Positions 22,368-37,181 of a stretch of 64,000 nt of DNA are shown here, piece by piece; the first letter of the stretch is position 1; the number at the start of each line of letters is the position of its first letter. Made by a program: the position numbers and the translations under genes. The stretch covers positions 2,480,001 through 2,544,000 of the forward strand of contig NZ_CP107931.1 in assembly GCF_036023875.1 (NCBI RefSeq), given 5' to 3'. Under the pieces are notes generated by a model, which saw only the letters and a list, made by a program, of their open reading frames with translations, made no database searches and had not been told where the DNA came from. The stretch comes from Mycobacterium sp. NBC_00419. Its GTDB lineage: Bacteria > Actinomycetota > Actinomycetes > Mycobacteriales > Mycobacteriaceae.

Positions 22368-22688
22368 ATGAAACGCTTCTGGCTTTACTTCGGAACCGCG
22401 CTGGCCCTCGTCATGGTGATTGGGTTGGCCATACCAGAACGGTCGTGGGCGGCGTGGGCCGCCAGCGCCATCCTCAGCGTCGCCATCGTGGCCGCTGCTG
22501 GCAGTCGAGTGCGCGCGGCATGGAAGCGGGAGTCCGAGCGCCAAAAAGAAATTGTCGACCGGTTCAACCGCGAGTATCCGCCACCGGAGCGAGTAGAAAC
22601 ACGGAATCGCCAGGAGGGAATGTCAAGCAAGCAGGACGACAGGCCCGATGATGATGTTGAGTGCGCCCGAAGGGATTCGAACCCCTAA
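22368..22688 (+). CDS. Small membrane protein, hypothetical, running into antisense of tRNA-Arg
   Basis: A 106-residue open frame starting at ATG 22368 with two hydrophobic segments (FWLYFGTALALVMVIGLAI and WAAWAASAILSVAIVAAAG) followed by a charged tail. The last residues (CARRDSNP) are read from the opposite strand of the tRNA-Arg gene, so the frame overlaps that tRNA by about 27 bases. The membrane part has normal mycobacterial codon use and looks real; the C-terminal end may be mis-called or the gene may be decaying. No family was recognised and no strong ribosome binding site is visible. Confidence 0.45.
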   Translation: MKRFWLYFGTALALVMVIGLAIPERSWAAWAASAILSVAIVAAAGSRVRAAWKRESERQKEIVDRFNREYPPPERVETRNRQEGMSSKQDDRPDDDVECARRDSNP

Positions 22689-22734
22689 CCTTCTGATCCG
22701 TAGTCAGATGCTCTATCCGTTGAGCTACGGGCGC
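22662..22734 (-). tRNA. tRNA-Arg (anticodon ACG)
   Basis: The minus strand folds as a 73-base tRNA. Acceptor arms GCGCCCG/CGGGCGC with discriminator A, a D-stem GCTC/GAGC, an anticodon stem TCTGA/TCAGA with loop CTACGGA (anticodon ACG at plus positions 22699-22701), and a T-arm containing GGTTCGAAT. The CCA end is not encoded. It lies 40 bases downstream of tRNA-Ser(GCT) on the same strand. Confidence 0.95.
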
Positions 22735-22774
22735 CTTCGTATTCAGTTGTTCTCGGCTGACGAGTCAGCCGCGG

Positions 22775-22863
22775 CGGAGGCGAGAGGATTTGAACCTCCG
22801 GTCCCCTTTAAGGGGGACAACTCATTAGCAGTGAGTCCCATTCGGCCGCTCTGGCACGCCTCC
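22775..22863 (-). tRNA. tRNA-Ser (anticodon GCT)
   Basis: The minus strand folds as an 89-base tRNA with the long variable arm of serine tRNAs. Acceptor arms GGAGGCG/CGCCTCC with discriminator G, an anticodon stem ACTCA/TGAGT with loop CTGCTAA (anticodon GCT), a variable arm built from GTCCCC/GGGGAC, and a T-arm with GGTTCAAAT. No CCA is encoded. It is the upstream member of a tRNA-Ser/tRNA-Arg pair. Confidence 0.95.
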
Positions 22864-22980
22864 TGAACTTCCTCAGCGTACCGGAGCCATACTGCAGCCC
22901 CAGAACCGCCGATGGATGAGAGTACACAGGCCGGATAACCGATGGCAAAGCGGTTCTGCCAGGCCCCTAGACTTGGGCAC

Positions 22981-24051
22981 GTGACCGCTCGCCTGCGCCC
23001 CGAACTGGCTGATATTCCGGCCTACACACCGGGCAAGACCGTGCCGGGTGCGATCAAGCTGGCCAGCAACGAAACCGTGCACGGCCCGCTGCCCAGCGTC
23101 CGGGAGGCCATCGCGGTCGCCGCCGAGACCATCAACCGCTACCCCGACAACGGCTACATCGAACTCAAGGACGAGCTGGCCAAGCACTTGAGCAAGGACG
23201 TCGACGTCGCCCCCGAGAACATCGCGGTGGGCTGCGGCTCGGTGAGCCTGTGCCAGCAGCTCATCCAGATCACCACGAGCGTCGGCGACGAGGTGGTCTT
23301 CGGCTGGCGCAGCTTCGAGATCTACCCGCTGCAAGTGCGGGTGGCCGGCGCCACCCCGGTCCAGATCCCGCTGCGCGACCACACCTTCGACCTGGACGCC
23401 ATGCTGGCCGCGATCACCGACCGCACCCGGCTCATTTTCGTCTGCAACCCGAACAACCCCACGTCGACGGTCGTCGACCCCGACGAGCTGGCCCGGTTCG
23501 TCGACGCGGTGCCGTCGGACATCCTTGTCGTCATCGACGAGGCCTACGTCGAGTACATCCGCGACGGCATGGTCCCCGACAGCCTGAGGCTGGCCCGAAC
23601 GCACCCGAATGTGGTTGTGCTACGCACTTTTTCCAAGGCCTACGGCCTGGCCGGCCTGCGGGTGGGCTACGCGGTCGGCGATCCTGACGTGATCACCGCC
23701 CTGGGCAAGGTCTACGTGCCGTTCACCGCCACCACGGTGTCGCAGGCCGCGGCGATCGCCTCGGTGCACGCGGCCGACGAGTTGATGGCCCGCACCGACG
23801 CCGTCGTCGCCGAACGCCGCCGGGTCACCGCGGCGCTGGCCGATCTGGGCTATTCGTTCCCGCCCACCCAAGCCAACTTCGTGTGGCTGCCACTGGCCGA
23901 GCACACGCTGGACTTCGTCGAGCAGGCCGCCAACGCCCGCGTGCTGGTCCGCCCCTACGGCACCGACGGCGTGCGGGTGACGATCGGCGCGCCCGAAGAG
24001 AACGACACCTTCTTGGCCTTCGCCGCCGACTGGATCAAGACCGTCAGCTGA
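22981..24051 (+). CDS. hisC2: Histidinol-phosphate/aromatic aminotransferase (HisC2/Pat-like, Rv3772-type)
   Basis: A 356-residue fold-type I PLP aminotransferase. The PLP lysine is Lys219 in TFSKAYGLAGLRVGY. The cofactor-binding CNPNNPTS (155-162) and the IDEAYVEY region are present. It converts imidazole-acetol phosphate or aromatic 2-oxo acids to the amino acid with glutamate as donor; the second copy in mycobacteria is usually called hisC2 or pat. The GTG at 22981 was preferred over an upstream ATG at 22942, because TAGACT at 22968-22973 sits seven bases before it, as in leaderless transcripts, and the protein then has the family length. It overlaps the end of the convergent DinB-like gene by eight bases. 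Confidence 0.9.
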   Translation: MTARLRPELADIPAYTPGKTVPGAIKLASNETVHGPLPSVREAIAVAAETINRYPDNGYIELKDELAKHLSKDVDVAPENIAVGCGSVSLCQQLIQITTSVGDEVVFGWRSFEIYPLQVRVAGATPVQIPLRDHTFDLDAMLAAITDRTRLIFVCNPNNPTSTVVDPDELARFVDAVPSDILVVIDEAYVEYIRDGMVPDSLRLARTHPNVVVLRTFSKAYGLAGLRVGYAVGDPDVITALGKVYVPFTATTVSQAAAIASVHAADELMARTDAVVAERRRVTAALADLGYSFPPTQANFVWLPLAEHTLDFVEQAANARVLVRPYGTDGVRVTIGAPEENDTFLAFAADWIKTVS

Positions 24052-24628
24052 CCGGCACCCGGCCGGTGAATGCGATCAGCCGGTCCAGCGCCGACGCGTC
24101 GGCGGATACCTCGACGGGATCGTCGAAGCCGGCCCGCACCCGGCCCTCCGGGGTGATGATGCGATGCACCAGGCCCGAGACGTAGTCGACCAGCGAGTCG
24201 GAGACATGAACCGGCTGACCGGTGGCGGCCGCGTAATCCCAAGCGTGGACCAGGAACTCGAGCGACAGAATGCTCGCCATGAAGCCCGCGGGCGCCTCAC
24301 CCGCACCGAAGGGAACCGTCCCGTCCAGCCCGCGCCGATGCCACGCGTCCAGTGCAGGACGGGCGGCGGCGATGATCTGGCGTTCCACGGAGTCGTTGGT
24401 GTCACGGTCGGGGATCTCGGCCCCGGCGGCCTGGCCGAGCAACGTGATGGAGTTCAGGACGTGGTCGGTGAGACCGGCGACATCGAACGTGCGGCACGGG
24501 GTCTGTTTGGAGAGGTCGTCGGTGGCGATGCGGTGTACCGCCTGCTGGAGCACTTTCAGCGTCGCTTCGGCGCTAGCCAGTTCATCGGTCGGTGCAGCTT
24601 CGGGTCCTGCGGTGAATTCGTCGCCCAT
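24044..24628 (-). CDS. TIGR03086/DinB-like putative metal-binding protein (Rv3773c-type)
   Basis: A 194-residue helical protein of the DinB/mycothiol maleylpyruvate isomerase N-terminal fold. It has TPCRTFDVAGLTDHVLNSI and EFLVHAWDYAAATGQ, giving His residues on separate helices as expected for a metal site. The family includes mycothiol-dependent enzymes, but the specific reaction is unknown. ATG 24628 gives the family length. Its stop lies inside the same 10-base palindrome as the hisC2 stop. From memory it corresponds to Rv3773c, in agreement with the neighbouring hisC2. Confidence 0.8.
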   Translation of the reverse strand: MGDEFTAGPEAAPTDELASAEATLKVLQQAVHRIATDDLSKQTPCRTFDVAGLTDHVLNSITLLGQAAGAEIPDRDTNDSVERQIIAAARPALDAWHRRGLDGTVPFGAGEAPAGFMASILSLEFLVHAWDYAAATGQPVHVSDSLVDYVSGLVHRIITPEGRVRAGFDDPVEVSADASALDRLIAFTGRVPVS

Positions 24629-24659
24629 GAGCCCACCGTACGACGGCCCACCGACAGCG

Positions 24660-25934
24660 CTACAGAGCGGTTGCGACCGCCGCTGCCCACTCGACGTCGA
24701 ACTCGACCACCAACTGGGCAGGGACGGCCAAAGCCAGGGGCGTGTACCCACCGGCCACCTCGTCACGGGCCACGCCCGTGATCACCCGGCCACCGAATCC
24801 GCCCGCCCGGCCGGGAACCTCGATGGTGAGGGTCGCCCCCGACGAACCGGGGAGCACCCTCAGATAGAACTCGGCACCGGGCTCCAGGGGCTGGATTACA
24901 GCAGCGCCGTCGGCGTCGACCACGGTATGACCGTCGGACACCCGGACCGCAGCGGCGTCGGTGGCGGCCAATCGGAACGGGCCCACTACCGCACCATCGA
25001 CGGCGGCGGACGAGGCCAGCAGCGACGGGGTCACCGTCTGCCGGGCTGCCGAGCGGGCCCCGGAGAGCAGGTAGTCATAGAGGTGCACGACGGGCTCGGC
25101 GTTGCGGTAGGTGCGCGAACCGTGAAGTTCGAAGCTCACGTCGCTGACGGTGGCGTCCCCGTCGATGAGCAGCCGGTAATGCCGGAAACCCTGGCCGCCG
25201 CGGTTGGTGCGGTTGTCGGAAATCGTGCTGCCGACACCGAGCGTCTTGCTGATCAGGCCGACACCCTCAGTCACCCTCAGGTGCGAGGTTGGCACATCCT
25301 CCCAGGCCACCGCGTCGGCCGACTTCTGCAGTGTCAGAACCGATTCGGTGCTCGACGAGACCATCGCGCTATAGCCGGCCAGTTGCCGCTCACCGTCGAA
25401 CTCGACGCGCACCGAGTCACTGGTGTGCAGGACGCGAGCCGGGATGTTGAGCGGACGATCGTCGAGTTCGAGTCCGTTGGTCAGCCGCCAGATGGCGGCC
25501 TGGGTGCCGGCGATGGCCTCGTGCTCGGCGATGTTGCGGGTGCCGAGCGGGTAGCCCGCGGCGCGGAGCCGGCGGCTGATCTCAGTGGTCGACAGCGTCG
25601 GGAAGGAGTTACGCAGAATCCAGTCAACCTCGGCCTCGTGGGCGCGGGCTTGCAGGTGCGGCACCGCCGACCAGGTATCGGCGCGGTAGCGCGACGGTCT
25701 GCTCGGTGAGACACCGGCGAAGTCCAGGGAGTAGGCCTCGATGTTCGGGTTGAGCCGGATCAGGTCGGTGCGCGCCGACGTGCCGTCGGTGAACAGAATG
25801 GTGTCGACGGTGTGCGAGTAGGTGCCCGGGCGGTACCGGGTCATCCGCGACAGATCGACGGACGGTGTCGGGCTCACCCGGCGCCGGACGGCGACCGGCG
25901 CGACAGCGGGGGCTGGGACAGCGAAAGTTGTCAT
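24660..25934 (-). CDS. TQXA/thioester-domain-like protein without the thioester cysteine or signal peptide
   Basis: A 424-residue protein. Residues about 35-155 match the thioester (TQXA) domain of Gram-positive surface adhesins, with VDWILRNSFP near 103-112 and GTQAAIWRLTNG at 143-154 carrying the Gln145 that normally forms the thioester. The partner position, usually Cys in an AYC-type motif, is Ser69 (EAYSLDF), and there is no cysteine anywhere in the chain, so no thioester can form. There is also no signal peptide, membrane segment or LPXTG motif, so a cytosolic location is expected. The C-terminal 270 residues look beta-rich and are not recognised. It is divergent from the encapsulin/cysteine desulfurase operon by 288 bases. 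A link to that compartment is an inference from position. Confidence 0.8.
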   Translation of the reverse strand: MTTFAVPAPAVAPVAVRRRVSPTPSVDLSRMTRYRPGTYSHTVDTILFTDGTSARTDLIRLNPNIEAYSLDFAGVSPSRPSRYRADTWSAVPHLQARAHEAEVDWILRNSFPTLSTTEISRRLRAAGYPLGTRNIAEHEAIAGTQAAIWRLTNGLELDDRPLNIPARVLHTSDSVRVEFDGERQLAGYSAMVSSSTESVLTLQKSADAVAWEDVPTSHLRVTEGVGLISKTLGVGSTISDNRTNRGGQGFRHYRLLIDGDATVSDVSFELHGSRTYRNAEPVVHLYDYLLSGARSAARQTVTPSLLASSAAVDGAVVGPFRLAATDAAAVRVSDGHTVVDADGAAVIQPLEPGAEFYLRVLPGSSGATLTIEVPGRAGGFGGRVITGVARDEVAGGYTPLALAVPAQLVVEFDVEWAAAVATAL

Positions 25935-26222
25935 CGGGTTGATCTCTCTGGATACGTCGACAGCGCAGATCAACGCGCCAAAAGGCGGCGGGCTGAGCGC
26001 AGGGATTTACGGCGTCAGAAGAATCAACAACAACAACAGAAGTGCACGTCAAGGCAGCGCGTGGAGACAAAGCGCAGCGGAGCGTGCTGTTGCATGCCCC
26101 ATACCATACGCGATGTGCGGGCCAAACCACATGGGGGTTCGCATCACGCTGATGTTCAAACCTGTGCAACTCCCAGCTGCAGGCACCATCATTGGGGCGT
26201 CCATTAGTCGGGAGGAACCACA
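25935..26222 (+). promoter_or_regulatory. Divergent control region between the thioester-like gene and the encapsulin operon
   Basis: These 288 bases contain no convincing gene. Next to the minus-strand gene is a perfect 8-base inverted repeat, GTTGATCT at 25938-25945 and AGATCAAC at 25967-25974, that covers its likely ribosome binding site. A CAA-repeat stretch lies at 26025-26038. A GGGAGGA ribosome binding site lies about 6 bases before the encapsulin ATG. No -10 hexamer could be assigned with confidence to either direction. Confidence 0.5.
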
Positions 26223-27149
26223 ATGACGTCAGCCCAGAATGAGTCTCAGGCGCTTGGTGCGCTTGCCGCGCGGCAACTCGCGAACGCGACCAAGACGGTC
26301 CCGCAGTTGGAGACCATTACTCCGCGGTTTTTGCTGCATCTGTTGAGCTGGGTGCCGGTCGAGGCCGGTATCTACCGGGTCAACCGGGTGGTCAATCCCG
26401 ACCGGGTAGCGATCCATGCCGAGGTCGGCGGGGAGAACATCGAAGACCCGCTGCCTCAGACCTATGTCGACTACCAGACCAGCCCGCGCGAGATCACGTT
26501 GCGGGCCATCTCCACGCTGCTCGACGTGCACACCCGGGTCTCGGATCTGTATTCCAGCCCGCACGATCAGATCACCCAGCAGCTGCGGCTGACGATCGAG
26601 ACGATCAAGGAACGCCAGGAATCCGAGCTGATCAACAACCCCGAGTACGGGTTGCTGTCCCAGGTCACCCCGGAGCAGACGATCAAGACCATCAAGGGCG
26701 CCCCGACCCCCGATGATCTCGATGCGCTGCTGACCAAGGTGTGGAAGACCCCGGCGTTCATCTTGACCCACCCACTCGGCGTCGCAGCCTTCGGCCGCGA
26801 GGCCACCTGGCGTGGGGTGCCCCCGGTGGTGGTCAACCTGTTCGGTGCGCAGTTCATCACCTGGCGCGGGATCCCGATCATCCCCAGTGACAAGGTGCCG
26901 GTGGAGAAGGGCAAGACCAAGTTCATCCTGGTGCGCACCGGTGAGGAACGCCAAGGCGTGGTCGGGCTGTTCCAGCCGGGTCTGGTCGGTGAGCAGGCCC
27001 CGGGTCTGTCGGTGCGTTTCACCGGCATCGACCGCTCCGGTATCGCCTCCTACCTGGTGACGCTGTACTCCTCGCTGGCCGTGCTCACCGATGACGCGCT
27101 GGCAGTGCTCGAAGGCGCGGCGGTGGACCAATACCATGAGTACAAGTGA
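26223..27149 (+). CDS. Family 2A encapsulin shell protein (HK97 fold; SrpI/MMP-I/35-kDa-antigen type)
   Basis: A 308-residue protein recognised as the Family 2A encapsulin known in mycobacteria as major membrane protein I or the 35-kDa antigen, and as SrpI in cyanobacteria. Family members form 60-subunit icosahedral shells. The N-terminal arm with TPRFLLHLLSW, the DYQTSPREITLR segment with the E-loop region after it, and the core with FGAQFITWRGIPIIPSDKVPV are visible. It has no signal peptide or membrane segment and no cysteine. The ATG at 26223 follows GGGAGGA. Its stop lies 14 bases inside the cysteine desulfurase gene, so shell and cargo are translationally linked. No Family 1 cargo gene (DyP peroxidase, ferritin-like) or cyclic-nucleotide-binding Family 2B insertion is present. 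Confidence 0.93.
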   Translation: MTSAQNESQALGALAARQLANATKTVPQLETITPRFLLHLLSWVPVEAGIYRVNRVVNPDRVAIHAEVGGENIEDPLPQTYVDYQTSPREITLRAISTLLDVHTRVSDLYSSPHDQITQQLRLTIETIKERQESELINNPEYGLLSQVTPEQTIKTIKGAPTPDDLDALLTKVWKTPAFILTHPLGVAAFGREATWRGVPPVVVNLFGAQFITWRGIPIIPSDKVPVEKGKTKFILVRTGEERQGVVGLFQPGLVGEQAPGLSVRFTGIDRSGIASYLVTLYSSLAVLTDDALAVLEGAAVDQYHEYK

Positions 27150-29022
27150 GTATCGATCGGTAGCCGCCGAAGGCGGCCTCCCGATCAGCGAGGCCGAACT
27201 GGCCGCCATGGCAACACAATTGCTCGCGGCCAGCATCCGGCCCGGCAACGATTCACCGCCGCAAACGGTGCCGCCGGCACCCCGCGGGTCGGTTCCCGAC
27301 ACCACAGCCGCGGCGTCCTACGCCTCGGCCGCGGCGGGTGGGGTTCCCTTCTCGCCGCCTGCGGTGTTCCTCGAAGCTCCGAGTGTGACGTTGCCGCCGC
27401 CGAGTTCACCTGGGCCGGAACCGGTTCCGCCGGGAACCGTTCCGGTGGCACCGCGCGGTACTGCACCGGACCTGACCACCGCACCGTCGGCGGGTCACGC
27501 CGCCTCGGGCGTGGCCGATGTCTACGCCCCGCCGCACCTGGAGGAGTTCGCCGTGCCCGACGGCATCGTTCCGACGGTGCCGGGGGTGTTGGCCGGTGCC
27601 ACCCCGACCGCGCCGGTGGCGCCGCGCGGGTCCGTTCCCGGTTTTCTGCATGAAGTCCCCGGGATTCCCGATCTCAGTTTCCTGTCGGCACCCCAATCCG
27701 CTTCGGCCCCAACCGGAGACGAGGCGAACTACTACTTCACCTCGGCGGTTCCCGGGTTGACCCAACCGGTGCCGCAGATCCCCGACAAGCACGAGATCTT
27801 CGACGTCCACGCCATCCGCGCGGACTTCCCGATCCTGCGCGAAACGGTCAACGGCAAACCACTGATCTGGTTCGACAACGCCGCCACCACCCAAAAACCC
27901 CAAGCCGTCATCGACCGCCTGGCCTACTTCTACGCCCACGAAAACTCCAACATCCACCGCGCCGCCCACGAACTGGCCGCCCGCGCCACCGACGCCTACG
28001 AAGAAGCCCGCGACACCGTGCGCCGCTTCATCGGCGCACCGAAATCCGAGCAGATCATCTTCGTGCGCGGCACCACCGAAGCCATCAACCTGGTGGCCAA
28101 AGCCTGGGGCGGCAAGCACCTCAAGCCCGGCGACGAGATCGTCATCACCAACCTCGAGCACCACGCCAATATCGTTCCCTGGCAGATGATCGCCAAACAG
28201 ACCGGCGCGATCCTCAAAGTCGCCCCCGTCGACGACGCCGGAAACCTGCTGCTCAGCGAATTCGAAGACCTGCTCGGCCCCCGCACCAAACTGGTCTCAG
28301 CCACCCAGGTCTCCAACGCCCTGGGCACCGTGACCCCGGTGGAGAAGATCGTCGAACTCGGCCACCGCTACGGCGCCCGGGTGCTCATCGACGCCGCCCA
28401 ATCCGTGCCGCACATCCCGATCGACGTCTCCGAGACCGGTGCGGACTTCCTGGTGTTCTCCGGACATAAGATCTTCGGCCCCACCGGCATCGGGGTGCTC
28501 TACGGCACCGAAGAAGCACTGGCCGAGACACCGCCGTGGCAGGGCGGGGGCAACATGATCGCCGACGTCACCATCGAACGCTCGATCTACCAAGGCCTGC
28601 CCAACAAATTCGAAGCCGGCACCGGCAACATCGCCGACGCCGTCGGATTGGGGGAAGCGCTGCGCTACGTCGAGAAAGTCGGCATCGACCGGATCGCAGC
28701 CTACGAACACGCACTACTGGACTACGCCACCCCGCGGCTGGCCGCCATCCCCGGCGTACGCCTGATCGGCACCGCCGATGAAAAAGCCAGCGTGCTGTCC
28801 TTCGTCCTGGCCGGCCACGACCCGATCGAAATCGGCAAAGCCCTCAACGCCGAAGGCATCGCCGTACGCGCCGGACACCACTGCGCACAACCCATCCTGC
28901 GGCGCATGGGAGTCGAAACCACCGTGCGGCCGTCCTTCGCGTTCTACAACACCTACGACGAAATCGACGTGTTCATCGACGCCGTACGACGCATCGCCGA
29001 AGGCGGGTCGAACACGGGTTAG
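27136..29022 (+). CDS. SufS-like cysteine desulfurase with long disordered N-terminal cargo-loading region (encapsulin cargo)
   Basis: A 628-residue protein. Residues 1 to about 222 are low-complexity and rich in Pro, Ala, Gly and Val. They contain APRG[ST]xP motifs at 48, 105 and 162, exactly 57 residues apart. From about 223 (DVHAIRADFPIL) a complete SufS/CsdA-type class V desulfurase follows, with PLP Lys445 in SGHKIFGPTG and catalytic Cys583 in RAGHHCAQP. It should take sulfur from cysteine and hold it as a persulfide. In Family 2A encapsulins the N-terminal extension targets the enzyme to the shell. ATG 27136 overlaps the shell gene by 14 bases. Cys583 is the only cysteine. Codon choice changes at the domain border (more GAA, AAA and CAA afterwards). 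Its stop overlaps the convergent DUF1684 gene by four bases. Confidence 0.93.
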   Translation: MSTSEYRSVAAEGGLPISEAELAAMATQLLAASIRPGNDSPPQTVPPAPRGSVPDTTAAASYASAAAGGVPFSPPAVFLEAPSVTLPPPSSPGPEPVPPGTVPVAPRGTAPDLTTAPSAGHAASGVADVYAPPHLEEFAVPDGIVPTVPGVLAGATPTAPVAPRGSVPGFLHEVPGIPDLSFLSAPQSASAPTGDEANYYFTSAVPGLTQPVPQIPDKHEIFDVHAIRADFPILRETVNGKPLIWFDNAATTQKPQAVIDRLAYFYAHENSNIHRAAHELAARATDAYEEARDTVRRFIGAPKSEQIIFVRGTTEAINLVAKAWGGKHLKPGDEIVITNLEHHANIVPWQMIAKQTGAILKVAPVDDAGNLLLSEFEDLLGPRTKLVSATQVSNALGTVTPVEKIVELGHRYGARVLIDAAQSVPHIPIDVSETGADFLVFSGHKIFGPTGIGVLYGTEEALAETPPWQGGGNMIADVTIERSIYQGLPNKFEAGTGNIADAVGLGEALRYVEKVGIDRIAAYEHALLDYATPRLAAIPGVRLIGTADEKASVLSFVLAGHDPIEIGKALNAEGIAVRAGHHCAQPILRRMGVETTVRPSFAFYNTYDEIDVFIDAVRRIAEGGSNTG

Positions 29023-29774
29023 CGCCGGGGCGTCTTTTCGCCTGCCTCGACGGCGACGGTGAGCTTGTTCTGCGCGGGTGCCACCGGGCAGGTCGCGTAG
29101 TCGGTGAACGCGCACGGCAGGTTCGATGCTCGGTTGAAGTCGAGTGTCACCGCACCGTCGGGGTCGGGTGCGGCGATCGCCAGCGACCTGGCGGCAGGGT
29201 ATGTCGTCACGCCACTGGTGGCATCGGTGAACAGCACGTGCAGGCCGCCCTGCGCGCCGGCGAAGGCGACGAGTTGCTGCCCGGCGCCCGACAACTCGAA
29301 GTCGACGACGCCGACGGCGCTGTGGTGGTGCTCCAGTCCTTCCACGACAGCACCGGTGGTCACGGTGGTGGGCTGCGTGTACGGGGTGAACCGGCCCGGC
29401 ACCACCCAGCCGCCGCTCGGCGGGTACGCGGGAATACCGTTGTAGGACAGCAGGTATGGCGCCTTGGGGTCGTGCACCCGCAGGGCCACCGAGCCGGTCC
29501 GGCGGATCACCTCGATGCGCCGATCACCGTCCTCGACGATCAACCCCGGCGCGCCCTCCACCGGTTCGAGCCTGTCGAGACCCGCGATTCCCTCGACGTA
29601 GGCCGCCTCGGTGTCGGCCCGCCAGCGGCCGGGAAGGTCATCGATCGTCTCGAATTCGTCGGTGAGCCAGTGCAACCCGGTGATACTCACCCAGCCGAGC
29701 GGATCGCCGAAGTAGCGCTCTCGTTCGGTGTGCCACCCTTTCCAGGACGCGGCGAAATCCTCCGGACTACTCAC
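29019..29774 (-). CDS. DUF1684 domain-containing protein
   Basis: A 251-residue protein matching the DUF1684 family (WHTERERYFGDPLGWVSITGLHWL at the start, then a beta-rich core and the terminal PCAFTDYATCPVAPAQN, a cysteine-containing motif typical of the family). The function is unknown; no signal peptide is visible. Its start overlaps the stop of the LLM flavin enzyme by four bases (ATGA), so the two are probably co-expressed. It is convergent with and overlaps the desulfurase gene by four bases. Confidence 0.88.
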   Translation of the reverse strand: MSSPEDFAASWKGWHTERERYFGDPLGWVSITGLHWLTDEFETIDDLPGRWRADTEAAYVEGIAGLDRLEPVEGAPGLIVEDGDRRIEVIRRTGSVALRVHDPKAPYLLSYNGIPAYPPSGGWVVPGRFTPYTQPTTVTTGAVVEGLEHHHSAVGVVDFELSGAGQQLVAFAGAQGGLHVLFTDATSGVTTYPAARSLAIAAPDPDGAVTLDFNRASNLPCAFTDYATCPVAPAQNKLTVAVEAGEKTPRR

Positions 29775-30841
29775 AGCGGAGCCCCTTTCAGTCTCGACTG
29801 GGCACTCAGTGGCCTGCTCGGGATGAAATCTCGCAGCACCGGCGCCACCTCCGACTGGAACAGCTCCAGGCTACGGCGCCTCTGGGCGGCGGAGCCACCG
29901 TCGGTGTCGGCACTGAGGTGGATGACCTCATGGCCGAGCTGTTCGTGATAGCGGCCCACCTTGTCGATCACCTGCTGCGGGCTGCCGATCAAAGCCGAAC
30001 TGCGCTCGACGAAGTCGTCGATGGACTCGAAGACCACCGGAAGCCCGGCCCGGCGGTGAAACTCCAGCCGGGTCTGGAAGACAGGCCGATACTCCTCTAT
30101 CGCCTGCTGTGACGTAGGCGCGATGTGGAAGCCCGCGGTTCCGGCACCGACGAGCGCGTCCTCGGGACGATGGCCGTAGGACTCCCAGCGCTGCCGGTAG
30201 TGCCGGACCAGCTCGGCGTAGGGCTCGATGGGGAAGGTCACGTTGGCCGAGAACAATGGGTCGCCGTGTCGGGCGGCGAGATCGACGGACTCTGTGCTCG
30301 TGGCGCTTCCGTGCCAGATGCGGAGGTGGGGCTGCAGCGGCCGGGGCAGCGCCTTGGCGTCGACGAGAGGCGGGCGGAACTGGCCGGACCACGTCACCAG
30401 TTCGCGCTCCCAGAGCAGGCGGAAGAGCTCGTAGCCTTCACGATTGCGATCCCACTGGTCGGTGGGGGTCACGTGAAACAGATCGGCCTGCGCGGTGCCG
30501 TTGCCCTTGCCGATGATCAGCTCCAGACGGCCGCCGGACAGGTTGTCGAGCGTGGAGTAGTCCTCGAAGGCGCGGACCGGGTCGAGCAGACTCAGCGTGG
30601 TCACCGCCGTGAACAGACCGATCGTCGATGTCCGGGCGGCGATGTTGCTCAGCACCACGGGCGGCGAGGAGGAGATGAACGGGTCCTCGTGCCGCTCGCC
30701 CACGGCGAAGCCGTCGAACCCGAGTTCCTCGGCGAGCACCGCTGATTCGATGACCTCGTTGAGCCGCTCGGCAGGGCTCTTCTTCTCACCCGACACAGGG
30801 TCCTGTTGATGGGCGATCAGAGTGAGGAGAAGGAACTTCAC
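29771..30841 (-). CDS. LLM class flavin-dependent oxidoreductase (luciferase-like)
   Basis: A 356-residue TIM-barrel protein of the bacterial luciferase-like monooxygenase family (LAEELGFDGFAVGERHEDPF, then GRLELIIGKGNG and WHGSATSTESVDLAARHGDPLF). Members use FMNH2 or F420H2; which cofactor applies here is not readable. The GTG start at 30841 follows a GAGG on the minus strand. It is the first gene of a two-gene unit with the DUF1684 protein and is divergent from the WhiB gene by 160 bases. Confidence 0.88.
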   Translation of the reverse strand: MKFLLLTLIAHQQDPVSGEKKSPAERLNEVIESAVLAEELGFDGFAVGERHEDPFISSSPPVVLSNIAARTSTIGLFTAVTTLSLLDPVRAFEDYSTLDNLSGGRLELIIGKGNGTAQADLFHVTPTDQWDRNREGYELFRLLWERELVTWSGQFRPPLVDAKALPRPLQPHLRIWHGSATSTESVDLAARHGDPLFSANVTFPIEPYAELVRHYRQRWESYGHRPEDALVGAGTAGFHIAPTSQQAIEEYRPVFQTRLEFHRRAGLPVVFESIDDFVERSSALIGSPQQVIDKVGRYHEQLGHEVIHLSADTDGGSAAQRRRSLELFQSEVAPVLRDFIPSRPLSAQSRLKGAPL

Positions 30842-31001
30842 GATGCCTCAATGAAGTGGACCCGACTGGTACGCACCAGGGTTGGAGTCGGGCAGATTGT
30901 ATGGTCCAGATTCACAACGATCCGATACCTCGGGCCAGCGGGCTTCGCCGACCATGATTGCGGTCACAGTGCCAGTTCGACGCCATTGGAGGGGAAACAT
31001 C

Positions 31002-31382
31002 ATGGTGCGGCGGAATAATCCCGTGGCGAAACCTTCGCGCAGTAATCCCCGGCCGCTTGCCCAGCCGTTCGTGCGTGAGTGGGAGTGGCAGTCGGCCGGC
31101 AACTGTGTCGGGCACCCCGTGGAAGTGTTCTTTCCCGAGGACAGTCCACGGCGGGACCGTCGCAGACTCGAACAACAGGCCAAGAACATCTGCTGGGGCT
31201 GCCCCATCAAGGTTCAATGCCTGGAGCACGCGATCAATACCCCCGAGCAGTTCGGGGTGTGGGGCGCAACGACCGCCAGCGAACGCGGACAACGCATTAC
31301 GGCGACCACGCGCAGCGCCGAAGGCTCACCCCGGTCAGCTCGCGGCCTGGGATACGCCGTCGGCGGTCGGCTGGCTCAGTAG
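31002..31382 (+). CDS. WhiB family iron-sulfur transcriptional regulator
   Basis: A 126-residue WhiB protein. The four [4Fe-4S]-ligating cysteines are Cys35, Cys64, Cys67 and Cys73 (spacing C-x28-C-x2-C-x5-C). The turn motif reads GVWGA (85-89) instead of the common G[VI]WGG, and a basic RGQR segment follows. WhiB proteins bind sigma factors and act as redox or NO sensors. ATG 31002 is preceded by GGAGGGG with about seven bases spacing. Its last 48 bases overlap the end of the convergent GCS2 gene. It could not be assigned to a numbered WhiB; by eye the W.WQ..G.C start is most like WhiB3. Confidence 0.9.
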   Translation: MVRRNNPVAKPSRSNPRPLAQPFVREWEWQSAGNCVGHPVEVFFPEDSPRRDRRRLEQQAKNICWGCPIKVQCLEHAINTPEQFGVWGATTASERGQRITATTRSAEGSPRSARGLGYAVGGRLAQ

Positions 31383-32465
31383 CTCGACGACGGCGGCGAG
31401 CCCGCCGTCCGATCTGAGCGCAGCGCGCTGCTGCACAGCACCATTGCCATCGGTGAGAGTCCGTTGCAGCGACTGCCGAACGTTGGCGAGTTCGCTGAGC
31501 TCCTCGAGCGCCGGCGTCACCCACGTCACGAGAGACTCCAGAACGGCGCGCGCCGAGGTGATAGTGCCACCCAGCACGTCGTATCCCTGTCCTGTCACAC
31601 CGTCGTGGGCCGCCTTCCACTTCGCGGCCACCAACGTCTCCGTCCCGATCTCCGCCGCGGTGCGCCCGGCGTCGAGTTCACCGAGCGCCGTGATCACCAG
31701 AGCGCGAATGAGGGTCGCCAACGTCACCGTCTCGTCGACGGTGGCCGGGACGTCACTGACCCGCACTTCGATTGTCGGCAGGTGACTCGATGGCCGGATG
31801 TCCCAGTAGAGCATCCGTTCGTCGAGCACCGCGCCGGTCTCGTGCAGCACGGCGGCGAGTTCGTTGAAGTGCTCTACCGACCGGAAGTAGGGCGGGGGTC
31901 CCGACACCGGCCAGCCGGTCTGTTGCACCGCACGCCAACTCGCGTAGCCGGTGTCGAAGCCGCCGTACACCGCCGAATTGGCGCTGAGCGCCAGCAGCGC
32001 CGGCAACCACAGCCGGACGTAATTGCTTACCTGCAAGGCAGTTTCGCGGTCCGGCATACCGACGTGCACGTGGCAGCCGCAGATCACCTGCCCGTAGGTG
32101 AGGCTGCCGAAGGAGTCGGTGATCCACTCGAAGCGGCTGCTGTCGGTGAGCGTGAAGGGTGGCTTGCCGACCGGCGGAACCCCGGCCGGGAGCAGCCGCG
32201 CCCCCAGGCTCGCCGCGGCCCTGGCGGCCAGGGTTCGCGCGTGAGCGAGTTCGTCACGCAGCTCGGCCGCGGAGGTGTGCACCGAGGTGTCGATCTCGAC
32301 CTGGCAGTTGGCGAACTCGGTGGACAGGCTCAGGCCGAGGGCTTTCGCGGCCTCGACGACGGCCAGGTTCTGCCCGGCCGGAATGCCCGTCCCGGCATCG
32401 ACCAACAGGAACTCTTCTTCGACCCCGAACGTCGTACTCGACGGGGGCTGCGTTGATCGACTCAC
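31335..32465 (-). CDS. Carboxylate-amine ligase / glutamate-cysteine ligase type 2 (GCS2, YbdK-like)
   Basis: A 376-residue member of the GCS2 family, beginning with the family signature FGVEEEFLLVDAGTG (residues 13-27) and containing CGCHVHVGMPDRETALQ. These enzymes are ATP-dependent weak gamma-glutamyl-cysteine or other carboxylate-amine ligases. Mycobacteria rely on mycothiol rather than glutathione, so the true product is uncertain. The start is a GTG at 32465. The 3' end overlaps the WhiB gene by 48 bases on the opposite strand. Several paralogues are usual in mycobacteria, so no gene symbol is given. Confidence 0.87.
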   Translation of the reverse strand: MSRSTQPPSSTTFGVEEEFLLVDAGTGIPAGQNLAVVEAAKALGLSLSTEFANCQVEIDTSVHTSAAELRDELAHARTLAARAAASLGARLLPAGVPPVGKPPFTLTDSSRFEWITDSFGSLTYGQVICGCHVHVGMPDRETALQVSNYVRLWLPALLALSANSAVYGGFDTGYASWRAVQQTGWPVSGPPPYFRSVEHFNELAAVLHETGAVLDERMLYWDIRPSSHLPTIEVRVSDVPATVDETVTLATLIRALVITALGELDAGRTAAEIGTETLVAAKWKAAHDGVTGQGYDVLGGTITSARAVLESLVTWVTPALEELSELANVRQSLQRTLTDGNGAVQQRAALRSDGGLAAVVELLSQPTADGVSQAAS

Positions 32466-32628
32466 CCGACTGTCTTACGCCGCCGCGGCCGCGCGAGCGC
32501 GGCATGCAATCGCGCTGATCAGAAGTATCCAGCCGGGCAGCACACGCGGTTACCGTTCGGCAGGCGCGAAGACGGACCCCTCGTGGACTTCCCTGTCTTC
32601 GAAGGAGATCAACCCTCGAGGGGACACC

Positions 32629-34086
32629 ATGTCGAACCAGATTGACGAATCGGGCGTGGCTTCGGCCACCGCAACCGCGACGGGCGAGCGCCCGCACCGC
32701 AAGCTCCGCGGCACGCTGGGCGTGTGGGGCATCGTGTTCGTGGTGGTGGCAGCCGCCTCACCATTGGGCGTGATGGGCGGCCCGGTGCCGCTGGGCATCG
32801 GCATCGGCAACGGCACCGGCTTTCCCGCCATCTTCGTCGTCAGCACCGTGATCATCCTGCTGTTCGCAGTCGGATTCACCGCCCTCACGCCGTATGTGCC
32901 GGATGCCGGAGCCTTCTACTCCTATATCGGCAAGGGCCTGGGACGAATCCCCGGGTTCGGGTTCGCATTCGTCGCGCTGATCTCGTATCTCACCCTTGAG
33001 ATCGCGGTCTACGGCCTGATCGGCCAGGGCGCCCAGGCGCTGTTCGCCTCCTACGGGCTTCCCCAAATTCACTGGGGTATTTGGGCTTTCATCGCGTTCG
33101 CGATTGTCACGCTGCTGGGCCACTTCAACATCGACCTGTCCCGCAACGTCCTCGGCATCCTTCTGATCGGCGAGGTTGCCATCGTGCTCGCACTCGACGC
33201 CGCCGTCATCTTCACCGGCGGTCACGAGGGACTGTCCACCGGCATCATCACACCGTCTGAAATCGTCTCGGGCGCACCAGGTCTGGCGCTTCTCTTTGCG
33301 ATCCTGAGCTTCATCGGGTTCGAAGCGACCGCCGTGTTCCGCGATGAGGCCCGCGACCCGTTGCACACCATCCCGCGCGCCACGTACCTGGCCGTCATCC
33401 TCATCGGCGTCTTCTACACGGTCTCGACCTGGGCGCTGATCAGCGCCTGGGGCGACAGCCGGGTGGTCGAGGCCGCCGTCAACACTCCGTCGGACGTGCT
33501 GCCCACCGCCACCCAGGAGTACCTCGGTACGGCTGGCTTGCACATCGTGCAGGTGCTCTTCGTCACCAGCCTGTTCGCCTGCATCCTGTCGTTCCACAAC
33601 ATCGTCGCGCGATACGTGTTCACACTGTCCAATCGCAACGTCTTCCCCGGCCAACTCGGAGAGGCGCACGAAAGCCACGGCTCACCGCACCTGGCCTCCG
33701 GGGCCGACGCGGTCATCGTGGCGGTGGCGATCCTGATCGGCATCTTGTTCAAGCTCGACCCGGTGACGCAGTTCTACACCTGGCTGGCGGGCATCTCCAC
33801 GGTCGGTATCACCACGTTGCTGATCGCGACCACTGTTGCCGTGCTGGTGTTCTTCGCACGCCGCAAGAAAGCGGGCCAGCTCGAGGTGTCGACCTGGCGC
33901 GCCTTCATCGCACCCGGTCTTGGCCTGGTCGGCCTGGTGATCGCGTTCGGCCTGATCCTGCAGAACCTGCCCGCCCTCGTCGGCAACTCGACGCCGATCG
34001 CCATCGGTGTCGGCGCCCTCCTGGTGGCGTTCTTCGCCATCGGCGCCGGCATCGCCGCACGGCGGCCCCAGGTGACCCTGGATTAG
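32629..34086 (+). CDS. APC superfamily amino acid permease
   Basis: A 485-residue polytopic protein with about 12 hydrophobic segments and the APC hallmark in the first (IVFVVVAAASPLGVMGG). A 35-residue Thr/Ala-rich cytosolic tail precedes it. The substrate is not known. ATG 32629 is preceded by GAGGGG; a perfect 10-base palindrome, CCCTCGAGGG at 32613-32622, covers this ribosome binding site. The gene stands alone between the divergent GCS2 gene and the crotonase gene. Confidence 0.86.
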   Translation: MSNQIDESGVASATATATGERPHRKLRGTLGVWGIVFVVVAAASPLGVMGGPVPLGIGIGNGTGFPAIFVVSTVIILLFAVGFTALTPYVPDAGAFYSYIGKGLGRIPGFGFAFVALISYLTLEIAVYGLIGQGAQALFASYGLPQIHWGIWAFIAFAIVTLLGHFNIDLSRNVLGILLIGEVAIVLALDAAVIFTGGHEGLSTGIITPSEIVSGAPGLALLFAILSFIGFEATAVFRDEARDPLHTIPRATYLAVILIGVFYTVSTWALISAWGDSRVVEAAVNTPSDVLPTATQEYLGTAGLHIVQVLFVTSLFACILSFHNIVARYVFTLSNRNVFPGQLGEAHESHGSPHLASGADAVIVAVAILIGILFKLDPVTQFYTWLAGISTVGITTLLIATTVAVLVFFARRKKAGQLEVSTWRAFIAPGLGLVGLVIAFGLILQNLPALVGNSTPIAIGVGALLVAFFAIGAGIAARRPQVTLD

Positions 34087-34108: not shown

Positions 34109-34930
34109 ATGAGTGAGCCTTACGAATCGCTGGCCATCGAGGTCAAGGACAACGTCGCCCAGGTCACGCTGCTCGGACCGGGCAAGGGCAATGCCATGGG
34201 CCCCGCTTTCTGGGCCGAGATGCCGGCCGTCTTCGCCGACCTGGACGCCGACCCCGAGGTCCGCGCGATCGTACTGACCGGCTCGGGCCGCAACTTCAGC
34301 TACGGCCTGGACCTGATGGCCATGGGCGGCATGCTGCCGTCGGCGGGCGGCGATCCGTCGGCCCGCCCGCGCGCCGAGTTCCACAAGAAGCTCAAGGGCA
34401 TGCAGCAGTCGATCACCGCGGTGGCCGACTGCCGCACCCCCACCATCGCCTCGATCCACGGCTGGTGCATCGGCGGCGGTGTGGACCTCATCAGTGCGGT
34501 CGACATCCGCTATGCCAGCGCCGACGCGAAGTTCTCAATACGCGAGGTCAAGCTGTCGATCGTCGCCGACGTAGGCAGCCTGGCGCGGCTGCCCTTCATC
34601 CTCAACGACGGTCACCTGCGCGAGCTGGCCCTGACCGGCAGGGACATCGACGCCGTCCGCGCCGAGAAGATCGGCTTGGTCAACGACGTCTACCCCGACC
34701 CCGAGGCCAGCCTGGCCGCAGCGCACGCCACCGCCGCGGAGATCGCCGCCAACTCACCGCTGGTGGTGCACGGCATCAAGGACGTGCTCGACGAGCAGCG
34801 CACCGCAGATGTCGCCGCCAGCCTGCGCTATGTCGCGGCGTGGAACTCGGCGTTCCTGCCGTCGAAGGACCTCGGTGAGGGCATCAAGGCGATGTTCGAG
34901 AAGCGCAAGCCGGAGTTCACCGGCGAATAG
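34109..34930 (+). CDS. echA21: Enoyl-CoA hydratase/isomerase family protein (EchA21-like)
   Basis: A 273-residue crotonase-fold protein. The oxyanion-hole region (GRNFSYGLDLMAM, then IHGWCIGGGVDLISAVD) is present. The active-site region reads EVKLSIVADVGSLARLP, with an acidic pair spaced as in delta3,5-delta2,4-dienoyl-CoA isomerase, so an isomerase of unsaturated acyl-CoA is as likely as a hydratase. The ATG at 34109 is six bases after TAGCCT (34097-34102), consistent with a leaderless transcript. From memory it corresponds to echA21 (Rv3774), which neighbours Rv3772/Rv3773c-type genes in M. tuberculosis. Confidence 0.88.
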   Translation: MSEPYESLAIEVKDNVAQVTLLGPGKGNAMGPAFWAEMPAVFADLDADPEVRAIVLTGSGRNFSYGLDLMAMGGMLPSAGGDPSARPRAEFHKKLKGMQQSITAVADCRTPTIASIHGWCIGGGVDLISAVDIRYASADAKFSIREVKLSIVADVGSLARLPFILNDGHLRELALTGRDIDAVRAEKIGLVNDVYPDPEASLAAAHATAAEIAANSPLVVHGIKDVLDEQRTADVAASLRYVAAWNSAFLPSKDLGEGIKAMFEKRKPEFTGE

Positions 34931-34935
34931 CGCGC

Positions 34936-35226
34936 CTAGCCGGCCTTGATCGCAGGCACGGCCTTCGACGTTGCCAGGACAGTGGGCTCATCCGTCGGCT
35001 GGGTCGTGGTCGTGGCGCCCATCTCGATCGGATGCACCGCCGGCGAAGAGTAGGGCGGGAACTTGGTCTCGGCACCCGAGTCCGCGCTGACACCGGTCCC
35101 TCCAGCCGGAAGCGAATGGGCGATGCCGAACAGAGCCATCACCGCTAGGGCGGCACTGCCTACGGTCGCTGCCAGCAACCTCTTACGGGAATCCGAGCCT
35201 TCTTGCAGATTCGCATGTGAGTTCAT
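34936..35226 (-). CDS. Small membrane-anchored or secreted protein, hypothetical
   Basis: A 96-residue protein with one N-terminal hydrophobic segment (LLAATVGSAALAVMALFGIA, about residues 17-36) preceded by basic residues, then a Pro/Thr-rich tail of about 55 residues. No family was recognised. ATG 35226 was chosen because AAAGGTG lies about nine bases upstream on the minus strand. It is convergent with the crotonase gene, five bases away. Confidence 0.6.
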   Translation of the reverse strand: MNSHANLQEGSDSRKRLLAATVGSAALAVMALFGIAHSLPAGGTGVSADSGAETKFPPYSSPAVHPIEMGATTTTQPTDEPTVLATSKAVPAIKAG

Positions 35227-35465
35227 CTGGGACAACACCTTTCGAGCGCGTGGAGGGCGGCGTCAACCGGCCCGACCAGTCCTCATCGACTGGCCGAGCA
35301 ACGAATTTGTCGCCTGTAACTCCGTTGTACGCCCGACTTGGCCGCCAAAGCACGGTCCTCAAGGTGACCCACAGAAACTCGGTCGCCGGTGCACAGTAGC
35401 CACGCACCGAACCGCCAGAAAGGCGCCAACCGACTGCCAGGAAGCAGCCCCCACCCATCACAGAG

Positions 35466-35552
35466 CGGTGGCGGAGGGATTTGAACCCCCGGACGGTGTT
35501 AGCCGTCTCTCGCTTTCAAGGCGAGTGCATTAGGCCGCTCTGCCACGCCACC
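35466..35552 (-). tRNA. tRNA-Ser (anticodon TGA)
   Basis: The minus strand folds as an 87-base serine tRNA with a long variable arm. Acceptor arms GGTGGCG/CGCCACC with discriminator G, an anticodon stem CTCGC/GCGAG with loop CTTGAAA (anticodon TGA), a variable arm built on GACGG/CCGTC, and a T-arm containing GGTTCAAAT. No CCA is encoded. The 239 bases between it and the small membrane protein gene hold no other gene that I can support. Confidence 0.95.
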
Positions 35553-35599
35553 GCGAACAAGCGTAGCGGTGTGCGTTTCCGATGCGGGTATCGGCCGAG

Positions 35600-36112
35600 C
35601 TAGACCCGGCCGATTTTCGCCGAAGAGCCGCCGGTTTTCAGCGATGCGCTGATCCTGCGGCAGTTCTCCCCCATCGCCGACATCTGAGGACGCGACAGCG
35701 GCCCGAGGAAGTTCTCCCGTACGCCACGCGCGTAGGTGAGCATCGCTTCCTCGACCACCTCGCGGCCGCGATCGGTGATGCTCGCCAAGACTCCGCGCCC
35801 GTCATCAGGGCTCGCGTCACGACGCACCAACCCGGCCGTCTCCAGACGCCGAATCTGGCGCGTCACCCGACTCGGCAACGACATGAGTTGCTCGGCGAGA
35901 TCCCCCATCCGCGCCGACCCTGTCTCAGAGTTGTCCAAGATCTCCAACAAACGGACATCCACCAGCGTCAGCTTGTGTTTGTCCACCAAGCCACGATTCA
36001 ACGTTCCGTAGAGTCGCAGCGCCGCGTCTAGAAAATTTTGCCAAGCTCGTTGCTCGGCAATATCTAGTCCCGGCATTTCAGATGCAGTCCGCCCCGCAAT
36101 AATCCCTCCCAT
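35600..36112 (-). CDS. MarR family transcriptional regulator
   Basis: A 170-residue MarR-type regulator. Winged helix elements are visible: MGDLAEQLMSLPSRVTRQIRRLETAGLVRR (recognition helix) and DDGRGVLASITDRG (wing). ATG 36112 was kept as the start because TACGAT lies six bases upstream on the minus strand (36119-36124), fitting a leaderless promoter; a later ATG at 36076 is possible. It is divergent from a quinone oxidoreductase gene, and the 81-base gap carries two palindromes, so it probably represses both genes and is released by a quinone or phenolic ligand. Confidence 0.88.
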   Translation of the reverse strand: MGGIIAGRTASEMPGLDIAEQRAWQNFLDAALRLYGTLNRGLVDKHKLTLVDVRLLEILDNSETGSARMGDLAEQLMSLPSRVTRQIRRLETAGLVRRDASPDDGRGVLASITDRGREVVEEAMLTYARGVRENFLGPLSRPQMSAMGENCRRISASLKTGGSSAKIGRV

Positions 36113-36118
36113 AGCGCA

Positions 36119-36124
36119 ATCGTA
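36119..36124 (-). promoter_or_regulatory. -10 hexamer of the marR-type gene
   Basis: TACGAT on the minus strand, six bases before the ATG at 36112. The spacing predicts transcription starting at or next to the start codon. Inferred from the mycobacterial TANNNT consensus. Confidence 0.5.
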
Positions 36125-36141
36125 AGCGACGCTACCGAGTT

Positions 36142-36158
36142 CGAGGCCAAAAGCCTCG
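36142..36158. promoter_or_regulatory. Palindrome 1 in the marR/qor divergent region (candidate operator)
   Basis: Perfect inverted repeat CGAGGC-CAAAA-GCCTCG. It is centred at 36150, 28 bases from the centre of the second palindrome, in the gap between the MarR gene and its divergent neighbour. Confidence 0.5.
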
Positions 36159-36167
36159 CTTCGGGCG

Positions 36168-36188
36168 AAACGTACCGGTAGTACGTTT
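36168..36188. promoter_or_regulatory. Palindrome 2 overlapping the qor -10 region (candidate MarR operator)
   Basis: Perfect inverted repeat AAACGTAC-CGGTA-GTACGTTT with 8-base arms and a 5-base spacer. It contains TACGTT (36182-36187), a -10-like hexamer six bases before the ATG of the quinone oxidoreductase, so a bound MarR dimer would block transcription directly. Confidence 0.62.
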
Positions 36189-36193
36189 AGGGC

Positions 36194-37177
36194 ATGTACG
36201 CCATCGTCGCCGAGTCCTCCGACAACCTGCTCTGGCGGGAAGTACCCGATGTCTCACCGGAACACGGCGAGGTACTGATCAAGGTCAGCTCTGCGGGAGT
36301 CAACCGGGCCGATCTGCTGCAGGCCGCCGGCAACTATCCGCCGCCGCCGGGCGCGAGCCCGATTCTGGGACTCGAGGTCTCCGGCGTCATCGCCGCTGTG
36401 GCTGATGGTGTCTCGGAATGGAGCGTGGGACAAGAGGTTTGCGCTTTGCTGGCAGGCGGTGGTTACGCAGAATATGTGGCGGTGCCCGCCGGTCAGGTGA
36501 TGCCGTTGCCCGCCGGTGTGAGCCTGCACGACGCCGCCGCGCTACCGGAGGTGGCGTGCACCGTGTGGTCGAACGTGGTGACCGCCGCCGCGCTGCAGCC
36601 CGGTGAAGTGTTGCTCGTGCACGGCGGCGCCAGCGGCATCGGCACGCACGCCATCCAGGTCGCGCATGCACTCGGTGCTGTGGTGGCTGCGACCGCGGGT
36701 TCAGCGGAAAAGCTTGAACTCTGTCGCGAATTCGGTGCCGACACCGTGATTTCTTACGGTGCCGAAGATTTCGTCGATCGCATCCGCGAAGCCACCGGCG
36801 GCGCGGGTGCCGACGTGATTCTCGACATCATGGGCGCGGCCTACCTCGACCGGAATCTCAACGCACTGGCGCCGGACGGCCGGCTGGTCATCATCGGCAT
36901 GCAGGGCGGCGTCAAAGCCGAACTCAACATCGGCAAGTTATTGACGAAGCGGCTGCGCGTGATCGGAACTACGCTGCGCGCCCGACCGGTCGAGGGTGCG
37001 CACGGCAAGAGCGCGATCGTCGCGGCGGTGGTGGAATCGGTATGGCCGATGGTCGGCGACGGCCGGGTGCGTCCCGTCATCGGTGGGCGCTACCCGATCA
37101 CCGACGCCGTCCAGGCGCATCGGGCGCTGGCCAGTGGACAGACCTACGGAAAGGTCCTGCTGACCGTCAGCGAATAG
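36194..37177 (+). CDS. NAD(P)H-quinone oxidoreductase, MDR family (Rv3777-type)
   Basis: A 327-residue zinc-independent medium-chain reductase. The GroES-like N-terminal half (VSSAGVNRADLLQAAGNYPPPPG) and the nucleotide-binding motif GGASGIG at residues 144-150 are visible. It resembles the PIG3/QorA branch, which reduces quinones with NADPH. The ATG at 36194 lies six bases after a -10-like hexamer inside a palindrome, so expression is likely set by the divergent MarR protein. It is convergent with the next gene (four bases apart). From memory it corresponds to Rv3777. Confidence 0.9.
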   Translation: MYAIVAESSDNLLWREVPDVSPEHGEVLIKVSSAGVNRADLLQAAGNYPPPPGASPILGLEVSGVIAAVADGVSEWSVGQEVCALLAGGGYAEYVAVPAGQVMPLPAGVSLHDAAALPEVACTVWSNVVTAAALQPGEVLLVHGGASGIGTHAIQVAHALGAVVAATAGSAEKLELCREFGADTVISYGAEDFVDRIREATGGAGADVILDIMGAAYLDRNLNALAPDGRLVIIGMQGGVKAELNIGKLLTKRLRVIGTTLRARPVEGAHGKSAIVAAVVESVWPMVGDGRVRPVIGGRYPITDAVQAHRALASGQTYGKVLLTVSE

Positions 37178-37181
37178 TGGT

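Follow-up and report, generated by a model that had tools for sequence, protein, structure and literature searches.

A probable third component of a mycobacterial Family 2A encapsulin locus behind a predicted cysteine-responsive leader

Background

Shells of encapsulin Family 2A and their cysteine desulfurases form an established kind of compartment, with solved relatives for both components. The closest described systems are SrpI and CyD of Synechococcus elongatus (PMC8049743; 6x8m) and the mycobacterial MMP-I or 35-kDa antigen encapsulin with its desulfurase (9ksl, 8wol, 8won; 8kg1). In the part of their article drawn on here, Nichols et al. 2021 (PMC8049743) relate that Leite et al. enriched MAP2121c and MAP2120c of M. 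avium subsp. paratuberculosis as one complex, and sulfur storage by a desulfurase encapsulin is mentioned in a passage of PMC12407261. In this paper we analyse a locus of this kind in a 64,000-nucleotide stretch (the window in what follows; positions 2,480,001 to 2,544,000 of contig NZ_CP107931.1) of the 5.6 Mb single-contig genome of Mycobacterium sp. NBC_00419. Besides the genes of the shell (26223-27149, + strand) and the desulfurase (27136-29022, +), the locus contains a divergent gene (24660-25934, -) for a thioester-domain-like protein of 424 amino acids (aa), here called the partner, which is preceded by a short open reading frame (ORF) with a run of cysteine codons. We consider it probable that shell, desulfurase and partner make up a three-gene Family 2A sulfur nanocompartment, in which the partner acts at cysteine shortage.

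The leader ORF itself is already known. Mycobacterial leaderless poly-cysteine short ORFs have the same layout, with a -10 element, an ATG and cysteine codons up to the stop upstream of a gene, and are described as cysteine-responsive attenuators in M. smegmatis in passages of PMC9094748 and PMC9031893 that cite Canestrari et al. 2020. A comparative study of 2005 predicted cysteine leader peptides before 'cys operons', with MAP2122 and ML0840 listed there as additional hypothetical genes (PMC1262725, in part), and an excerpt of a study on M. abscessus (PMC4974804) describes an ORF upstream of the TQXA-domain gene MAB_0219. A link to an encapsulin was not found in the section on 'cysteine operons' of PMC1262725, none is mentioned in the consulted parts of PMC8049743 and PMC8346489, and a literature search ('thioester domain' with 'encapsulin'), with most subscription papers outside its scope, found no tie of partner or leader to the encapsulin. 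The molecule names in the PDB entries of MMP-I likewise mention no third component. The new part is the third component, strictly linked to the shell and lying behind a predicted cysteine switch; the poly-cysteine short ORF here precedes an encapsulin partner gene.

Results and Discussion

A third gene linked to the shell gene

Counts of neighbours, overlaps, motifs and leaders were drawn from the loci of the best 80 of 107 related shells, which, where named, come from Mycobacterium, Mycolicibacterium and kin. Neighbour conservation was judged by tblastn (E 1e-15) in up to 8 kb either side of the shell. With upstream sequence too short in L054 and L066, 78 of the 80 loci are usable for the partner, which adjoins the shell in every one of them (78/78). 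Other neighbours of the window locus vary: hisC is found near the shell in 4/80 related loci, a permease in 4/80, WhiB in 3/80 and MDMPI in 1/80, while DUF1684, LLM and GCS2 occur in 0/80.

The same association was seen across 396 sampled genomes of the genus, a set that shares members with the named related loci. The shell family is present in 134 of these genomes and the partner in 145, that is, in 134/134 genomes with the shell compared with 11/262 without it (Fisher p 2e-93, uncorrected for relatedness). One of the 134, G105, was counted by a weak match under the family cut-off; it holds remnants of shell and desulfurase, its partner is interrupted by an internal gap, and the poly-cysteine short ORF is kept. 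Among the 11 genomes, a contig end cuts the shell gene in G184, G089 has a partner split over four ORFs together with a 41-residue shell remnant, G241 has a whole partner next to a truncated shell, and eight others have only short or weak partner matches (one of them, G297, is missing from the table of places). Fourteen partner rows had been flagged as having one stop inside, but each is one open frame that runs from position 1-9 to 419-420 of the 428 of the profile; since the frames cover the whole profile, the flagged stop is the natural end in all 14.

Beyond the genus, 381 genomes sampled across the family (counting the own genome and further genus members) revealed partners adjoining the shell in three additional genera (G437, G587 and G727), in G437 co-directional with the shell and upstream of it. 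The partner matches of G726 and G729, from another genus, resemble canonical thioester-domain proteins. In the class sample (216 genomes), matches outside the family cover the thioester-domain parts only (about 44-167 and 274-424 of the profile), and none of those listed adjoins a 2A-type shell (rows compared by eye). A tree was built from 32 shells, including 15 of the 80 named loci and 13 partner-less loci hand-picked by score and frame length; in it a single branch, supported at 100/100, separates the partner-bearing shells from the rest.

Some loci differ in layout. The shell of G241 (L167, about 4850-6445) is truncated after about 36 residues, where its frame runs into unrelated sequence. 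The two copies in G098 (L168 and L169) are 98.2% identical over 2758 bases and lie at distant sites of one contig, with the partner beside one only. At L205 (G206) the gap between shell and partner measures about 2 kb, where about 0.5 kb is usual, and an insertion there is possible.

A poly-cysteine short ORF upstream of the partner gene

In the intergenic region, a leaderless short ORF (MQQHAPLRFVSTRCLDVHFCCCC-stop; 26024-26095, -) precedes the partner gene. The -10 element of its promoter, TATGGT (26103-26108, -), lies 13 bases before the ATG, start to start. With a -10 just before the ATG and a cysteine run up to the stop, this ORF is predicted to attenuate the partner gene in response to cysteine. 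A comparable short ORF with its -10 at -12 or -13 is present in 77/77 intergenic regions (the window and 76 loci; L046 and L051 were left out of the partner and intergenic sets by the start-finding rule). A first listing had been picked for the cysteine run, and the counts given here come from a later fixed criterion with a shuffle control: 77/77 regions on the partner strand, 0/77 on the shell strand and 1/3850 dinucleotide-preserving shuffles. The ORF also occurs in 16/16 loci fetched with a whole partner frame; named loci and sample genomes overlap, and at least six of these 16 are already among the 77 and hence dependent. It is absent from G089, retained in G241 and carries three cysteines in G587.

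Two candidates on the opposite strand were dropped. A plus-strand short ORF (ATG at 26113, stop overlapping the shell start) was considered as a second leader and abandoned because no comparable ORF recurs there among the other 76 regions. A plus-strand TACCAT hexamer within 26102-26113 overlaps the minus-strand -10 and precedes that plus-strand ORF, and is unconserved in relatives. The two overlapping, opposed -10-like hexamers had suggested a shared divergent promoter, but the conserved block matches only the promoter of the minus strand.

Two genes or three

The alternative that survives best is a plain two-gene Family 2A encapsulin, with the partner an unrelated neighbour kept via the shared intergenic region. 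An account by shell and desulfurase requires nothing further, and several observations weigh against a three-gene compartment. The partner-less form exists elsewhere in the family: 13 shell-desulfurase loci of other genera lack the partner (10-16 kb, full-sensitivity profile), and because these operons do without it, the partner is dispensable for the core function of shell and desulfurase. In G241 the partner is intact despite the truncated shell, and no desulfurase was found in the 15 kb fetched; in G098 the second shell-cargo copy has no adjacent partner. Among the three other genera with a partner, G437 and G727 have no poly-cysteine short ORF by the fixed criterion. The short ORF serves the partner gene only, the shell strand having no counterpart, and the partner and shell sides need not be co-induced. 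A cargo-type N-terminal motif was not seen by eye in the partner, and the linkage could partly reflect the shared intergenic region. An unrelated neighbour is nevertheless difficult to reconcile with the 78/78 linkage at loci whose other neighbours vary, with the 134/134 co-occurrence, with the partial or split partner copies in 9/11 genomes without a shell match and with a linkage that persists in G437, where the partner is co-directional and upstream. We regard the mere neighbour as unlikely, and the three-gene compartment as the better account of the locus.

The protein encoded by the partner gene

The partner belongs to the family of M. leprae ML0840 and MAP2122, and was characterised by profiles (PF08341, TIGR03934), linkage, alignment and fold. 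It scores 32.9 bits with PF08341 (cut-off 22, E 9.4e-8) and 54.3 with TIGR03934 (cut-off 30.4). It contains no cysteine at all: Ser69 replaces the thioester cysteine, while Gln145 of the TQxA motif is retained. Both residues are invariant in the 54/54 partner proteins aligned (P0001, sequences from 40 of the 77 loci, and 13 from the remaining 119 database proteins), and cysteine stands at the column matching Ser69 in 7/7 canonical thioester domains that cover it. A discoidin/CBM32-like insert occupies residues about 160-274. Foldseek TM-scores are low (TMq 0.33 to 6fwy), and we therefore base the assignment to the thioester-domain fold on the profile matches and the VIA-align rows. Judged by profile and by the glutamine of the TQxA motif, the partner would be a thioester-domain protein minus the cysteine of the internal thioester. 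It differs from the surface proteins with thioester domain (TED) and TQXA motif (PF08341; 6fwy, 6fwv, 2xi9) by this serine, by the discoidin/CBM32-like insert, by the lack of a clear signal sequence and by its tie to an encapsulin.

Could the partner be a second cargo of the shell? The two are encoded at one locus, and the N-terminal stretch of the partner is rich in proline and arginine and of low confidence in the predicted structure (pLDDT, a per-residue confidence score, 43 to 73 across the first four ten-residue blocks). This tail, though, comprises about 30 residues compared with about 210 in the desulfurase, and the conserved cargo motifs were not seen in it by eye; we consider a cargo role improbable.

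The fold and the TQxA motif are those of a surface family, and the partner might accordingly be a secreted surface adhesin merely co-regulated with sulfur status. Against this, the N-terminal hydropathy peaks of 77 partners reach at most 1.64 (median 0.75; 1.49 in the window copy) versus 2.41 in the canonical thioester-domain proteins L116 and L117, a comparison of hydropathy alone. We take the partner to be probably cytosolic. The reactive cysteine, moreover, is replaced in 54/54 proteins, and the gene is strictly tied to a compartment of cytosolic proteins, all of which makes an adhesin very improbable.

Shell and desulfurase

The shell protein (308 aa, free of cysteine) is of the SrpI / MMP-I / 35-kDa antigen type. 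It matches Pfam PF19307 (SrpI-like) at E 2.9e-93 and no other domain, so that a cyclic nucleotide (cNMP)-binding domain is absent. It passes the NCBI model for Family 2A (NF041162, 487.9 bits, cut-off 380) and stays slightly under that for Family 2B (NF041163, 390.9, cut-off 400). The top PDB matches are MMP-I (9ksl and 8wol, E ~1e-178; also 8won and 8t6r), to which it aligns full length, and SrpI (6x8m) follows at E 1.3e-129. The window shell has a one-residue insertion relative to 9ksl, with no functional difference seen; its close relative 8wol was deposited with 60 chains.

The desulfurase (628 aa) is SufS-like, with a match to PF00266 at E 1e-148. Its score with the Family 2A cargo model NF041166 (847.3) exceeds the cut-off of 800, TIGR01979 is also above cut-off, and the PDB desulfurase 8kg1 matches residues 210-624 at E 1.2e-252. 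Its start was taken as the ATG at 27136; the mechanical ORF list begins at an earlier ATG, 27091. With this start, the shell and desulfurase genes overlap by 14 bases (27136-27149). The same overlap recurs in 73/76 related loci, and the remaining three overlap by 4 bases if the nearest start is taken. At the M. leprae locus (L069) gene order and overlap are as in the window.

The desulfurase core contains an SGHK motif, with Lys445 encoded at 28468-28470 (+), in 77/77 cores. In these counts the own locus (L001) is included among the 77, and 76 refers to the related loci alone. A RAGHHC motif, with Cys583 at 28882-28884 (+), is found in 76/76 related cores; the only miss is the core copy of L001, which is cut and was left out of the counts of core cysteines. 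From the SufS family we take Lys445 to be the lysine that binds pyridoxal phosphate and Cys583, the sole cysteine of the cargo, to be the catalytic residue.

The first 215 residues (27136-27780, +) form a predicted cargo-loading domain, delimited by conserved columns and by motif counts over 77 domains. It is rich in proline, alanine and glycine, and on this composition probably disordered; it has no cysteine, as is the case in 75/77 domains. Its elements are ELAAMATQLL (21-30), APRG (48-51, 105-108 and 162-165) and GDEANYYF (194-201). Across the 77 domains an ELxxLA-type stretch is found in 69/77, a YxF near the end in 76/77, two or three APRG-type repeats in 69/77 and a PTxPGVLA-type element in 54/77, whereas stricter versions of the two motifs match just 11 and 45 of 78 loading domains. 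In the SrpI system, where the loading domain has 225 aa, the cargo motifs are published as LARLANEFFS and AASPYYFLDG (PMC8049743, in part). The exact strings are absent from the loading domain of the window; its ELxxLA and YxF elements recall both motifs in place and character, a likeness judged by eye. Unlike the SrpI/CyD system, the loading domains here include the APRG repeats and the PTxPGVLA-type element, and the locus has the divergent thioester-domain-like partner with its poly-cysteine leader.

Most of the preliminary description of this locus is borne out. It had recognised a Family 2A encapsulin with SufS-like cargo, which the two family models and the best PDB matches confirm, and its coordinates and 14-base overlap are exact. 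In calling shell and desulfurase one unit it was right about the overlapping pair, but the unit was incomplete, with the divergent partner gene as constant third member. The joint purification that it proposed as a check corresponds in effect to the enrichment of MAP2121c and MAP2120c, the M. avium subsp. paratuberculosis orthologues of the pair, that is described in PMC8049743. A structure search of 26223-27149, which it had suggested, returned SrpI and MMP-I; its 8 PDB matches include no phage capsid. Encapsulins and HK97 capsids share a fold; yet a phage capsid remnant in place of an encapsulin is already refuted by the MMP-I and SrpI matches, by a Family 2A equivalog score above the cut-off and by a cargo gene conserved in relatives.

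Exit of the sulfur

The earlier statement that no SufE or SufU partner, iron-sulfur assembly gene or thioredoxin is adjacent holds across the profile-scanned region 22942-45230: none of SufE, SufU, a SUF assembly protein or thioredoxin was found among the ten genes of 22942-34083 or among the eight ORFs of 34109-45230, two of which had no family. Elsewhere in the genome, and far off, lie SufS (C1:5391415), SufU (C1:5392590) and a SufE that adjoins a frame with two rhodanese domains (C1:4104422-4105650). Persulfide release from the shell, which was fairly raised as an open question, is sharpened by the composition of the shells, for the window copy and 74/80 relatives are free of cysteine. Similarly, 71/76 desulfurase cores have a single cysteine only. 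Six neighbouring genes are also poor in cysteine (11 of 2030 residues), and in view of this low baseline the window copy by itself is weak evidence and the persistence across relatives is stronger. Nichols et al. considered a shell that accepts persulfide in the manner of SufE (PMC8049743, in part). For the mycobacterial shell such a persulfide chain appears unlikely, because there is no conserved thiol on the shell or the loading domain. Three routes are then left for the sulfur: transfer from the catalytic cysteine to a small molecule, growth into a polysulfide on that residue, or pick-up by a different protein.

A possible working of the compartment

Shell and desulfurase would be translated together, and the cysteine-free, probably disordered N-terminal domain would draw the desulfurase into the shell, where the enzyme would turn cysteine into alanine and sulfane sulfur; for loading and reaction we rely on relatives that were solved or studied biochemically. 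As long as cysteine is ample, ribosomes would pass the short ORF and the partner would stay low, while the loaded shell can enclose sulfur. When charged Cys-tRNA is short, ribosomes would stall at the cysteine run and the partner would be made. It could then dock on shell or cargo and alter the compartment at cysteine shortage, with the effect that either stored sulfur is freed or the enzyme is stopped from spending the last cysteine; between the two we make no choice. Attenuation, docking, the direction of the effect and the biochemical role of the partner are what we infer here. The partner seems ill suited to carry sulfur and more likely binds shell or cargo, since it has no conserved cysteine and two domains of binding type. 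Only tentatively do we go further and suggest that mycobacterial sulfur encapsulins have a dedicated third protein, a thioester-domain fold that gave up both its reactive cysteine and its place at the cell surface, is produced once cysteine is exhausted, and docks in order to switch the compartment from storage to release or to shut off the desulfurase.

If this holds, a fold known from covalent surface adhesins would have been reused in the cytosol. The partner, co-inherited and placed behind a predicted switch for cysteine shortage, also indicates when the system is likely to matter. ML0841 and ML0840, the M. leprae orthologues, have each been investigated as leprosy antigens, according to the portions of the literature consulted, and a functional link between them would, if true, be of interest in this context. 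In part of a leprosy transcript table (PMC10083373), ML0840 has values near -1 (p 0.0028 and 0.0004) and ML0841 values of 0.57 and 0.42 (p 0.08 and 0.31), taken without column headings; at most, these figures indicate that the two need not move together.

Other genes of the window

A YbdK-type glutamate-cysteine/carboxylate-amine ligase (GCS2) is encoded at 31338-32465 (-), and has no counterpart within 8 kb of the shell in the 80 related loci. Together with a class-V aminotransferase (37185-38387) it had suggested an ergothioneine cluster; this idea was dropped because the scanned genes in between encode a permease, an enoyl-CoA hydratase and a zinc dehydrogenase. The genes of tRNA-Arg(acg) and tRNA-Ser(gct) lie at 22661-22863 (-), adjoining a hisC-like gene, and that of tRNA-Ser(tga) lies on the opposite side of the locus, at 35465-35552.

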